DNA from: Anaerotruncus sp. G3(2012)
GTDB lineage: Bacteria; Bacillota; Clostridia; Oscillospirales; Ruminococcaceae
Assembly: GCF_000403395.2 (NCBI RefSeq)
Contig: NZ_KE159674.1
Location: 50,702 to 114,701, forward strand
Length of the DNA: 64,000 nt
Reading direction: 5' to 3'
Shown here: positions 4,084 through 43,016 of the stretch, piece after piece
Layout of the letters: each line of letters begins with the position of its first letter
How positions within the stretch are numbered: the first letter of the stretch is position 1
Notes under the pieces: model-generated
Seen by the model: the letters and a program-made list of their open reading frames with translations, nothing else
What the model was told of the DNA's origin: nothing
Databases searched by the model: none
Position numbers and translations under genes: made by a program

Positions 4084-5262
4084 CTATCTGATTTCGGAGT
4101 CAGTCCCGAAAAAAGCGGTAACTTTTGCTCCCGCCGGGCCATTCTCCACCTTCAGCCAGCCGCCGTGGTGGCGGCAAAGGGTGGTGCAGATGTAAAGGCC
4201 CAGGCCGAAGTGGCTCCCCTTCTCCCCGGTGAAGTAGGGGTCGGCAGCCTTTTCCAGAGCCTCCGGGGCAAATCCGGGGCCGTCGTCCGCCACCGTGAGG
4301 AGCAGCCCGCCGTCGGTCTCCGCCAGGGAGAGGGCCACGGCGCTCCCGGCGTACCGGGCGGCGTTGGCAACAAGGTTGCCAAACACCTGGGCGACAAAGG
4401 CCCCGTCCAGGGCAAGCCGGGGGGAAGCAGTCCGGTCCTCCATGGAAAAACCCTTCCCTGCCTGGGTACAGACCATCTTACCGCTTTCCGCCAAGGAGGC
4501 CGCCAGGGGGGACAGGGGTGTTGACCGGAGTTCGGGTCGGGTGTCCTCCAGGCGGTGGAGCTGGCTCATGGTGGAGACATACTGCTCCAGCCGGTCGATA
4601 TGCCGCCCCATGGTGATGGCGGTGGCCCGGGTCGGTTCCTCCCCGCTGGCTTGGAGCATCTCGTTGTAGCCCTTGAGGACGGTGAGGGGGGTCCGAAGGT
4701 CGTGGGCAAAGGCGGCGTTGAGACGCTTGCGCTCCTCCATCTGCCGCCACATCTCCGAGAAGTTCCGGGCCAGGGCGGCCCGCATCGTCTCGAAGGAGGC
4801 GGAGAGCTGCCCCAGTTCATCCCTGCTGTGGACGGTGACGGTAAAGTCCAGGTCGTTCTGGGAGATCTTTTCCGAGGCCAGCCGCAGCTCTGCCAGGGGC
4901 CGTTTCAGCTTGTTCCGGTAGAAAAGCAGCGCCGCCCCCAGGATGCAGAGGGCGGACCACACCGGCGTTGTCACCGTGGGCAGGGCCCGGAGGATGTCCA
5001 CTGTCCGCTGGTCCTCCGGGGACAGGGGGAAGGGATCGGTGCCGATATAGGTCCCCTCCCCCAGCTGTTCCCCGCGCTCGTTGGTGAGGTAGTATTTTTC
5101 CATGTTGTCCGGGTAGGCGGCACGGATCTTCTTTACGCCCAGGTCGCACAGGTTGGCAGTCATCTCGCAGAGGGCCAGGGCCAGCAGAACAGCGACGGTG
5201 ATGTACACCACCAGGGCTTTTCTCAGGGGGAGATCCCACCAGCGGCGCCTTATCTGCTCCAT
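4084..5262 (-). CDS. Sensor histidine kinase
   Basis: Start at ATG 5262 inside the end of the regulator gene (13-bp overlap). About 392 residues: a membrane segment near 20-40, an extracytoplasmic loop of about 70 residues, a second segment near 105-125, a HAMP linker, then the HisKA dimerisation helix with FAHDLRTPLTVLKG (phospho-accepting His), the N box NLVANAARYA, G1 DDGPGF and G2 GLGLYICT. It should autophosphorylate in response to an envelope signal and pass phosphate to the adjacent OmpR-type regulator. The small extracellular loop fits sensors of cell-envelope peptides, but the ligand is unknown. Confidence 0.88.
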   Translation of the reverse strand: MEQIRRRWWDLPLRKALVVYITVAVLLALALCEMTANLCDLGVKKIRAAYPDNMEKYYLTNERGEQLGEGTYIGTDPFPLSPEDQRTVDILRALPTVTTPVWSALCILGAALLFYRNKLKRPLAELRLASEKISQNDLDFTVTVHSRDELGQLSASFETMRAALARNFSEMWRQMEERKRLNAAFAHDLRTPLTVLKGYNEMLQASGEEPTRATAITMGRHIDRLEQYVSTMSQLHRLEDTRPELRSTPLSPLAASLAESGKMVCTQAGKGFSMEDRTASPRLALDGAFVAQVFGNLVANAARYAGSAVALSLAETDGGLLLTVADDGPGFAPEALEKAADPYFTGEKGSHFGLGLYICTTLCRHHGGWLKVENGPAGAKVTAFFGTDSEIR

Positions 5263-41391: not shown

Positions 41392-41550
41392 TTATTTGGA
41401 AGTGTTTTGACGGTCAGCTTTGCCGCCCAATCTGGTCAGCAGGGTGACAATCCCGATGATCAGGAGGATCACCGCAAAGATGCCAACCATCCCCAGACCC
41501 ATGATTTCCAGGGAAATCATAAAGTTGGCCATTGCCTGTGCACCAAACAT
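41392..41550 (-). CDS. OadG-like gamma subunit of sodium-pumping decarboxylase
   Basis: A 52-residue protein too short for most gene callers: ATG 41550 behind GGAAGGAGG, one membrane helix MVGIFAVILLIIGIVTLL with a short N-terminal tail rich in Met and a basic C-terminus. Size, topology and position directly downstream of the beta-subunit gene fit OadG/MmdC-type gamma or delta subunits that stabilise the complex. Conserved position is the main evidence. Confidence 0.7.
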   Translation of the reverse strand: MFGAQAMANFMISLEIMGLGMVGIFAVILLIIGIVTLLTRLGGKADRQNTSK

Positions 41551-41568: not shown

Positions 41569-42708
41569 TTATTTCACAAACTGCGGAACCAGATAGAGAA
41601 CGATTCCGCCCGCGATGACGGACCCAATCTGTCCGGAGACGTTTGCGCCGATCGCGTGCATCAGCAGGTGGTTCTGGTTATCCTCTTTCAACGCCATCTT
41701 TTGGATCACACGTGCGGACATTGGGAAAGCCGAGATACCGGCTGCGCCGATCATCGGGTTGATCTTCTCTTTGAGGAAGAGGTTGAGCAGCTTTGCAAAC
41801 AGGCAGCCGCCGATGCTGTCGAAGATAAATGCGATCAGACCCAGTCCCATGATGAGGAAGGTCTCCCAGGTGACAAACTGTTCTGCCTGCATCGAAAACG
41901 AGATTGTGATGCCAAGCAGCAGGGTAATGATGTTCGCAAACTCGTTTTGAGCGGTTTGGGCGAGTGAGTTAAGCACCCCGCATTCCCGCAGCAGGTTGCC
42001 GAACATCAGGAAACCGACCAGCGAAACCGACATCGGTGCAACCAGCCCCGCAATGATTGTCACAAGGATTGGGAAAAGGATGCGGGTGGTTTTGGTGATG
42101 TTTTTTGGATTGTAGTGCATCCGGATGCAGCGTTCTTTCCGGGTAGTGACCAGCTTGATTGCCATTGGCTGGATGATTGGCACCAACGCCATATAGGAAT
42201 AGGCCGCAACTGCGATAGCACCCATATATTGGGATTTGAAAATCTGCGAAACCATAATCGAAGTGGGGCCATCCGCCGCGCCAATGATGCCGATGCAGGC
42301 CGCGTCTTTGAGGTCAAAGCCGAAGAGCGCCGCCAGAGAAATCGTGAAAAAGATGCCGAACTGTGCCGCTGCGCCGAATACCATCATCTTTGGATTGGAA
42401 AGCAGGGGGCCGAAGTCGATCATTGCGCCAATGCCGATAAACAGCAGGATCGGGAGCGCTTCGGACGCCTCAATGGTGGTCTGGAACAGCCATTGGATGA
42501 TCCCCTGCGCCTCAATCCCACCCTGTAAAACCTGATCGAGTACGCCGGTCAGCGGCAGGTTCACCAAAATGGCGCCGAAGCCCATCGGCATGAGCAGCGC
42601 GGGTTCAAACTCTTTGGCAATCGCCAGATAGATCAGAAGCCCGCCGATACCATACATGACGATCTGCTGCCAGGTGACCGACATGATTCCGGATAGTAAG
42701 AAATCCAT
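41569..42708 (-). CDS. Sodium ion-translocating decarboxylase beta subunit (OadB/GcdB/MmdB)
   Basis: Start at ATG 42708 with GAAAGGGG upstream; the longer frame covers an attenuator leader. 379 residues, about nine membrane helices. Key motifs GIGAMIDFGPLLSNP (with the Na+-binding aspartate), IGIIGAADGPTSI and the C-terminal GANVSGQIGSVIAGG are clear. This subunit couples decarboxylation of carboxybiotin to Na+ export. The alpha (carboxyltransferase) and biotin carrier genes are absent from the window, so they must be elsewhere. Substrate could be oxaloacetate, methylmalonyl-CoA or glutaconyl-CoA; the latter two fit butyrate or propionate fermenters. Confidence 0.88.
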   Translation of the reverse strand: MDFLLSGIMSVTWQQIVMYGIGGLLIYLAIAKEFEPALLMPMGFGAILVNLPLTGVLDQVLQGGIEAQGIIQWLFQTTIEASEALPILLFIGIGAMIDFGPLLSNPKMMVFGAAAQFGIFFTISLAALFGFDLKDAACIGIIGAADGPTSIMVSQIFKSQYMGAIAVAAYSYMALVPIIQPMAIKLVTTRKERCIRMHYNPKNITKTTRILFPILVTIIAGLVAPMSVSLVGFLMFGNLLRECGVLNSLAQTAQNEFANIITLLLGITISFSMQAEQFVTWETFLIMGLGLIAFIFDSIGGCLFAKLLNLFLKEKINPMIGAAGISAFPMSARVIQKMALKEDNQNHLLMHAIGANVSGQIGSVIAGGIVLYLVPQFVK

Positions 42709-42833
42709 TTGATTTTCCCCTTTCAACTTGACTGGATTGTTTGCCTCTATTGAGCGTGGGAATGCTGAACAGGAACCGCCGGAGATTCCTGCTGTTTCCC
42801 CTCTTGTAAAAGGATGCCCAGTTTTTTTCGCGA

Positions 42834-42875
42834 TAGAAAAAGACCTGCGTTCCACTTCAATGAAACACAGGTCTT
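42834..42875 (-). terminator. Attenuator-type terminator in decarboxylase leader
   Basis: On the minus strand AAGACCTG and CAGGTCTT pair around 20 nt and are followed by TTTTCT. It stands about 110 nt after the promoter and 125 nt before the start codon of the beta subunit, so transcription must pass it. Confidence 0.75.
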
Positions 42876-42981
42876 GCCATTTCAAGTTAAACCATGGCCC
42901 ATCAGAGCCAATGCTGTTGATTTAACTGCACACAGCTAAGGTGTGCCGACTACTCCCCCGGACTATCCAGTTCACTTTGAC
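42876..42981 (-). ncRNA. Candidate riboswitch or other cis-acting leader RNA
   Basis: Between the TSS region and the attenuator the leader contains GCACAC/GTGTGC (perfect 6-bp stem), GTTAAA/TTTAAC closing a larger loop, and the purine motif GGGGGAGTAGTCGG. Promoter, structured region and terminator in a row is the layout of a transcription-attenuating riboswitch. The class was not recognised; GGGGAGTAG recalls the yybP-ykoY motif but the downstream CCGAA part is missing. Confidence 0.5.
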
Positions 42982-42987
42982 GCTCCT

Positions 42988-43016
42988 ACTATAGCATACT
43001 ACCAAAAAGCTGTCAA
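42988..43016 (-). promoter_or_regulatory. Sigma70 promoter of decarboxylase operon
   Basis: On the minus strand TTGACA (43016-43011) and TATAGT (42993-42988) with 17-bp spacing, nearly consensus. The start codon of the beta subunit is about 280 bp away. Confidence 0.8.

Follow-up and report, generated by a model that had tools for sequence, protein, structure and literature searches.

What kind of RNA stands ahead of a gene annotated as the beta subunit of a sodium-pumping decarboxylase, and what does it sense? The question is raised by a leader within the 64,000-nucleotide stretch of Anaerotruncus sp. G3(2012) DNA, hereafter the window. The initial annotation placed this leader before a sodium-pump decarboxylase subunit gene, and that gene is indeed found on the minus strand at 41569..42708. 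It encodes an OadB-type membrane protein of 379 aa from the sodium ion-translocating decarboxylase subunit beta family (PF03977, 503 bits; TIGR01109, 408 bits; PDB 6iva, E 2e-91). Directly downstream of OadB on the same strand (41392..41550) lies the gene for an OadG-like single-helix protein of 52 aa, which ends shortly after its helix and matches PF04277 below the cut-off (E 0.0022). The next genes upstream encode a YjjG-type nucleotidase and an AgcS-type symporter. In a tree, a long stem (1.1) with 100/100 support separates the OadB subfamily considered here from 25 other OadB rows. The point of interest is the target, as a probable Mn2+ sensor precedes two genes known as membrane parts of a Na+-pumping decarboxylase.

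The leader has the layout of an attenuator. Transcription is predicted to start from a sigma-70-type promoter on the minus strand (42988..43016) that combines TTGACA, a 17-nt spacer and TATAGT with an extended -10 (TG before the -10). The near-consensus promoter described earlier is thus present, with 11 of 12 consensus bases, and is the best among four sites in 3 kb; the number of sites is itself unremarkable, as shuffles yield 1.9 sites of a looser kind. The pairable blocks that had been listed (GCACAC/GTGTGC, GTTAAA/TTTAAC and GGGGGAGTAGTCGG) all occur in the leader, which folds on the minus strand into five stems and a 16-pair terminator ahead of the OAD_beta gene. Sequence inspection and folding place this intrinsic terminator at 42840..42875 (minus strand), with a loop of 4 and a U-run at 42841-42837, confirming the terminator reported before the gene; its distance to the start codon (42708) is 131 nt and not the 125 nt given initially. 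Same-genus leaders (L006-L011) show the hairpin and the U-run, so that the terminator is also found in close relatives. The entire leader is more stable than 200/200 dinucleotide shuffles (z -4.2), with the excess coming mostly from the terminator. Because the free energy of the aptamer part alone is not unusual against shuffles (z -0.44), conservation and covariation are the beyond-chance evidence for an aptamer.

The initial annotation regarded a sodium-responsive RNA as attractive and pointed to an Rfam covariance search that included Na+-I (DUF1646), a model contained in Rfam 15. When this search was run, RF00080, the Mn2+ riboswitch, was the best of four matches to the leader at E<=10 (29.6 bits, E 1.7e-6), followed by SSRC10 (28.7 bits) and two weak ones. 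No Na+ family is among these four matches, Na+-I included, and the sodium proposal is left unsupported. The RF00080 match lies below the gathering score of 45, and no Rfam model reaches its gathering score anywhere in the window. The same 45-bit threshold is reached in 0/61 genomes (own and relatives) and in 2/14 control genomes. Two leaders before mntP also fall under it, as do the pieces L279 and L280 with the Escherichia coli mntP and alx leaders. We take the RF00080 gathering score as a poor divider for these leaders, and its use as a cut-off may leave Mn2+ riboswitches widely overlooked.

R1, a covariance model built from 17 related leaders, scores the window leader at 81 bits (E 5.2e-21), its sole match at E<=1 in the genome. 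Leaders outside the training set were also recovered (L012, L019, L022, L024, L026-L029, L035 and L051). On the E. coli leaders R1 is weak, scoring mntP at 14.3 bits and alx at 6.4 bits with filters off and matching neither with default filters. By sequence and covariation the leader belongs to the yybP-ykoY class, and its RNA is very probably a yybP-ykoY-type Mn2+ riboswitch. We note that the mntP gene of the same genome (L049; G000:C6:3135-3584) has no detectable Mn2+-type leader.

The aptamer spans 42868..42960 on the minus strand and comprises P1.1 (42960-42957/42871-42868), P1.2 (42950-42947/42879-42876), P2 (42946-42941/42933-42928), P3.1 (42927-42919/42893-42885) and P3.2 (42909-42905/42900-42896), in all of which every pair is standard in the window. 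Our alignment joins 17 leaders, 7 before OadB and 10 before other genes, and GGGAGUA, UCAACA and AGAC are invariant in 17/17. RNAalifold draws 18 pairs from it, with two-sided changes at 15, and 96.4% of the cells are paired versus 31-48% with slid partners. Covariation among homologous leaders, for which the initial annotation had called, is found: the score of 0.729 is reached by 0/500 shuffles (maximum 0.192), in a test that somewhat favors the structure, as it was derived from the same alignment and the shuffles ignore the relatedness of the leaders. Further pair types, one of five measures, do not exceed the shuffles, 106/500 of which reach the count. Covariation supports stems P1.1, P1.2, P2 and P3.1, and by eye P1.1 varies as CGGG/CCUG, CAUGGG/CUCAUG and AUGAG/CUCAU. 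The junction, also read by eye, is three-way, with only UGAAA (42884-42880) between P3.1 and P1.2 and no fourth helix. This absence is not disqualifying, because a streptococcal three-way form is described in PMC9495176 as canonical yybP-ykoY.

The published metal site consists of G8, G9, A10, G93 and A94 of L1 and C44, A45, A46, C47 and A48 of L3, with the N7 of A48 binding Mn2+, as given in PMC6754395. Every one of these bases has a counterpart in the window leader, and the site is intact. The L1 5' strand GGAGUA (42951..42956, minus strand) holds the A10 equivalent at 42954, in alignment columns 8-13 that are invariant in 17/17 leaders. The L1 3' strand AAGA occupies 42875-42872 on the same strand, with columns 99-101 likewise invariant in 17/17. 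The C44 equivalent (42919) and the L3 loop AACAGCAUU lie at 42910..42919 (minus strand); UCAACA is the invariant part, and the equivalent of the Mn2+-binding adenine A48 falls at 42915, the roles being those assigned in PMC6754395. Beside A48, the window has a G at the place of Xanthomonas oryzae U49. The partial yybP-ykoY consensus noted in the initial annotation proved to be the right clue: alignment with relatives shows both conserved loops in full.

Two forms of L3 are distinguished in PMC6754395, ACAUACU in X. oryzae and UCAAUUC in Lactococcus lactis. We compared 49 OadB leaders, 30 from a species-genome set (the best 80 of 591 loci) and 19 others, training rows included; L207 and L208 are weak R1 matches, and duplicates of two genomes were omitted. 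All 49 have GGGAGUA and AGAC, and in each of them four consecutive U occur within about 70 nt. Sorted by pattern, with a few misplaced, 18 have the UCAACA form of L3, 27 a short form and 4 something else; read by eye, L265 and L024 are short-L3 leaders and L247 is a variant. Both main forms are also seen by eye in E. coli K-12, before mntP (UCAACAUACU) and before alx (CGUCAUUACG). The idea that short-L3 leaders are necessarily another ligand class was rejected, as L. lactis, according to PMC6754395, and E. coli alx have the short form. As a separate observation, three OadB leaders (L231 1844-1939, L234 1850-1943 and L247 1852-1951) are natural variants with UCGSUA for UCAACA, in which the A48 position is kept and its neighbors are not.

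How such an RNA could switch is suggested by the overlap of its helices. The 5' arm of the terminator includes the 3' strands of L1 and P1.1, and 42871-42868 is common to terminator and P1.1, so that the terminator and the ligand-bound aptamer are mutually exclusive. For secondary structure alone, the aptamer with terminator and without P1.1 folds at -44.2 kcal/mol versus -24.7 for the aptamer with P1.1. From this difference it follows that termination is the default and that Mn2+-driven docking must act during transcription, as PMC11087558 describes for L. lactis. In the absence of Mn2+, the strand AAGACCUG would join the 16-pair terminator and transcription would stop before the gene. Mn2+, with Mg2+, bound between L1 and L3 would hold the weak 4-pair P1.1; the held helix would keep AAGACCUG out of the terminator, and RNA polymerase could then read into the OadB-OadG-like pair. 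This logic matches that reported for L. lactis and X. oryzae (PMC11087558, PMC6754395). We infer both Mn2+ as the ligand and the direction of switching, and hold with high confidence that this yybP-ykoY riboswitch senses Mn2+ and acts as an ON switch of transcription. The earlier proposal that premature termination is under the control of a structured, ion-type riboswitch is in this respect well founded.

The company that the RNA keeps elsewhere leans the same way. R1 was run on 291 Clostridia genomes, drawn evenly from a larger group, and yielded 114 matches in 99 of them. After leaving out the matches in G092, G213 and G328, and one match that is the second aptamer of a tandem, we examined 110 places and classed their first downstream genes by similarity to chosen seeds, ten of which were checked against Pfam. 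These genes encode P-type cation ATPases (35), MntP (30), Na_Ca_ex exchangers (14), GDT1 (10), ABC (6), OadB (5), TerC (3), TetR (1) and CitMHS (1) proteins; five places have none, two of them cut by a contig end. Known cation-exporter families thus follow 92/110 of the examined places, whereas the window's own gene is an OadB. All five OadB cases of the survey belong to the OadB subfamily, and an R1 match is seen at 0/24 canonical OadB loci, for which flanks were short.

Linkage of the RNA to the OadB gene recurs among relatives. A protein search in 61 genomes (own and relatives) found 26 with a close subfamily member (62-100% identity); other matches lie at 30-54%, plus one 72% fragment, and 15 genomes have no match. 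Similar leaders stand upstream of the subfamily gene in 15/26 (L005-L012, L019, L022, L024 and L026-L029); at L018 a leader with A10 changed to C is seen by eye only, and at 10/26 subfamily genes the leader is absent. RF00080 and inspection locate the same RNA in relatives before mntP, a P-type ATPase gene and a TetR gene, and six same-genus genomes have it before mntP. Within the genus, where genomes are few, the RNA precedes OadB in 7/7 genomes having the subfamily and mntP in 3/7 of these; mntP carries it in 3/4 genomes of the genus without the OadB subfamily. The idea that mntP and the OadB subfamily replace each other was considered and rejected, as MntP (PF02659) occurs in 54/61 genomes. 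In a wider scan of species genomes, from which the best 80 of 591 subfamily loci were taken, R1 matches at E<1e-3 within about 300 nt upstream of 30/80. Weaker matches precede the gene at L207 (E 0.022) and at L208 of [Clostridium] symbiosum (E 0.013), each with a terminator by eye. An acceptable leader is missing at 48/80 of these best loci, among which R1 matches at L210 and L212 are remote from the subfamily gene, and L261 and L272, with less than 180 nt of upstream sequence, are too short to judge.

Several other places carrying the RNA deserve mention in their own right. At L099 (G068:C60:4834-4928 and 4978-5068), two Mn2+-type aptamers in tandem, separated by about 50 nt, precede the gene for a P-type cation ATPase. 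Genes for ABC transporter ATPases stand directly behind a Mn2+-type leader at L074, L076, L079, L110, L122 and L148. A gene for a CitMHS-type (citrate family) transporter lies behind a short-L3 leader of this type (L162 233-1552); together with OadB, this case could hint at metal-citrate handling.

Could the RNA respond to something other than Mn2+? A variant of yybP-ykoY that responds to a different divalent ion, such as Ca2+, with the gene pair handling that ion, would fit with the 14/110 survey targets that are Na_Ca_ex exchangers, 11/14 of whose leaders are without UCAACA (two of these have CCAACA). A review (PMC7266159) considers other divalents to be the probable ligands of some yybP variants, and a streptococcal mgtA RNA is reported in PMC9495176 to bind Ca2+ as well. 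However, UCAACA is retained in the window and in its genus, and mntP leaders of that genus and of E. coli show this form as well; we regard the alternative of another divalent ion as improbable. A constitutive attenuator without any ligand would need only the terminator, which is strong by itself, but would not account for the conserved loops and the compensatory P1.1 changes across leaders, making it very improbable. Na+ sensing retains its appeal through the Na+-I riboswitches, ion sensors that precede oxaloacetate decarboxylase genes in some bacteria, as stated in PMC9337991. Since the Na+-I model finds no match in the window leader at E<=10 and the conserved core is that of yybP-ykoY, we consider a Na+-sensing riboswitch exceedingly improbable. 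The riboswitch itself is, in our reading, an ordinary Mn2+ sensor, missed by the Rfam cut-off in all 61 genomes searched.

The role of the gene pair is harder to assign, and its conserved residues pull in two directions. Residue counts compare 79 subfamily rows (the best 80 of 591 loci, leaving out the badly aligning L224) with 24 canonical rows. In StOAD, the Salmonella pump, PMC7274780 assigns Na+ binding to Asp203, Ser382 and Asn412, a critical role in carboxybiotin decarboxylation to Glu40, and an important one to Arg304 and Asn311, whose alanine mutants are moderately inhibited. Glu40, Asp203, Ser382 and Asn412 are retained in 79/79 of these best subfamily rows. Arg304 is kept in 6/79 (Ser in 47, Thr in 10, Asn in 7) and Asn311 in 38/79 (Lys in 24), versus 24/24 canonical rows for both. 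Thus the Na+ site is strictly held and the biotin-handling residues are relaxed. The window protein, a member of the OAD_beta family with the Na+-site residues Asp203, Ser382 and Asn412, also has Glu40 and Asn311 and replaces Arg304 with Ser. Among the rows of this set with the RNA, 4/32 retain Arg304. As R304A inhibits StOAD only moderately, according to PMC7274780, loss of Arg304 weakens but does not exclude decarboxylase function. The substitutions G201A, V381I, V384F, V416Q and G353D (StOAD numbering), which are fixed in the subfamily and lie near the ion site, were tried as a sign of Mn2+ specificity and rejected, as a Trichococcus member in a full decarboxylase operon has them.

The neighborhoods were examined in flanks of 1.5-2 kb for most subfamily loci, contig permitting. 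A small OadG-like gene follows OadB in 68/80 of the best loci and in most other loci. The 68 adjacent gamma-like genes encode 37-162 aa, and 50 fall within 37-58 aa. In StOAD gamma, alpha binding is reported to depend on residues 61-84, so that most of the adjacent gamma-like proteins would be too short to dock alpha in that way; a long tail is present in at least three loci (L267, L271 and L272). A biotin-carrier motif appears in the flanks of 2/80 of the best loci (L254 and L274) and 0/30 other subfamily loci, compared with 9/24 canonical loci, whose flanks are partly shorter; a tenth, L191, is a chance match. Clustering of flanking ORFs at the best 80 loci gave no neighbor shared by more than six loci except the small gamma gene, which is mostly below the size used. 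At the window locus, no biotin-dependent partner gene (carboxyltransferase or biotin carrier) is among the neighboring genes scanned. BCCP, OadA and carboxyltransferase are encoded elsewhere in the genome; its PF02436 domain lies in a carboxyltransferase-BCCP-OadA cluster, with no beta subunit in the 10 kb examined. An argument against decarboxylase function from the absence of OadA falls, because PF02436 is present in 26/26 subfamily genomes among the relatives. One further oddity is L015, where the 88-aa gamma-like ORF after OadB also has the GIIGGADGPTAI stretch, a motif of the OadB H1 tip.

Judged from sequence, the product of the OadB-OadG-like pair quite possibly takes part in Mn2+ efflux or handling, a role that fits the loss of Arg304 in most members and the rarity of adjacent partner genes. 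Our more specific proposal is tentative: the pair may be an exporter of Mn2+, or of divalent cations, with the OAD-beta fold turned to manganese. Most simply this would be a Na+/Mn2+ exchanger, given the retained Na+ site and the loss of Arg304 and of biotin partners next door; bolder and less likely is a form of the same proposal in which decarboxylation still drives a Mn2+ pump. Alternatively, a Mn2+ riboswitch may control a genuine membrane part of a Na+-pumping decarboxylase that borrows its carboxyltransferase and biotin carrier from elsewhere, with Mn2+ serving metabolism, for example through a Mn2+-dependent carboxyltransferase, and not Mn2+ export. The strict retention of Glu40 and the Na+-site residues, together with Asn311 in the window, would suit such a pump, and the moderate effect of R304A tempers the loss of Arg304. 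The Trichococcus member L274, which a quick tree places at the base (SH-aLRT of 93 for all others), belongs to a row of Fumerase_C, OAD_gamma, Biotin_lipoyl, subfamily OadB and PYC_OADA genes and retains Arg304 and Asn311. Of the columns whose residue is fixed in all other members and rare among canonical rows, it departs in only three. At L254 (64-3116), a biotin carrier, a canonical OadB and a subfamily OadB follow one another on the same strand. PF02436 is found in all 26 subfamily genomes among the 61, and the subfamily in 0/16 genomes lacking an OadA frame shorter than 1,100 aa, a pattern that common descent may explain. From L274, L254 and the co-occurrence with PF02436, we conclude that a true decarboxylase subunit stood at the origin of the subfamily or is among its members. 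Against a pump at the window locus stand the relaxed Arg304 and Asn311, the scarcity of nearby biotin-carrier motifs, the 50/68 adjacent gamma-like genes too short for an alpha-binding tail, and the lack of R1 matches at the canonical OadB loci. We consider a Na+ pump under Mn2+ control rather unlikely at this locus, and the complete decarboxylase operon of the basal Trichococcus member keeps it credible.

Either a large stand-alone subfamily is mislabeled as "sodium ion-translocating decarboxylase subunit beta", or a Na+ pump is under the control of manganese. Riboswitches have helped to assign function to badly annotated transporters, and the OadB-OadG pair may be an unrecognized part of manganese control. 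PMC7266159 raises the possibility that further transporters in the regulon are specific for Mn2+ and that other divalents are sensed by some variants. The portions of the literature searched, among them PMC9337991, PMC11477304, PMC9495176 and PMC7266159, yielded no link between yybP-ykoY and OadB, and an unremarked table entry may exist.

Set beside known systems, the leader shares with yybP-ykoY (RF00080) the loops L1 (GGAGUA with AAGA) and L3 (UCAACA), a P1.1 that overlaps the terminator, the proposed ON logic, and its occurrence in relatives ahead of genes for MntP and P-type ATPases. It differs in its compact three-way form versus the published four-way one, in its score below the gathering threshold and in its OadB-OadG target. 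The protein pair resembles the beta and gamma subunits of the oxaloacetate decarboxylase Na+ pump (PDB 6iva/6iww) in family, Na+-site residues and the small gamma next door. Unlike that pump, it belongs to a separate subfamily, has lost Arg304, has neither alpha nor biotin carrier next to it and a gamma without tail, and stands behind a probable Mn2+ riboswitch.

SSRC10 (RF02617), filed as a streptococcal sRNA, matches the same stretch of the leader (E 0.0014), with similar loops and terminator; its L3 has the short CGUCANNNC form whereas the window has UCAACA, and the match is below the gathering score of 56. Matches of this model to riboswitch leaders, terminator included, occur in the window (42962-42835) and at L007, L022, L024 and L027, also below the gathering score. 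In Streptococcus pyogenes, SSRC10 precedes a putative calcium transporter, as noted in PMC3675131. We suggest that SSRC10 probably represents a yybP-ykoY riboswitch leader that ends at its terminator. Finally, in another genus a fluoride riboswitch (L022 2792-2881; 38.9 bits, cut-off 34) lies shortly downstream of an OadB subfamily gene.
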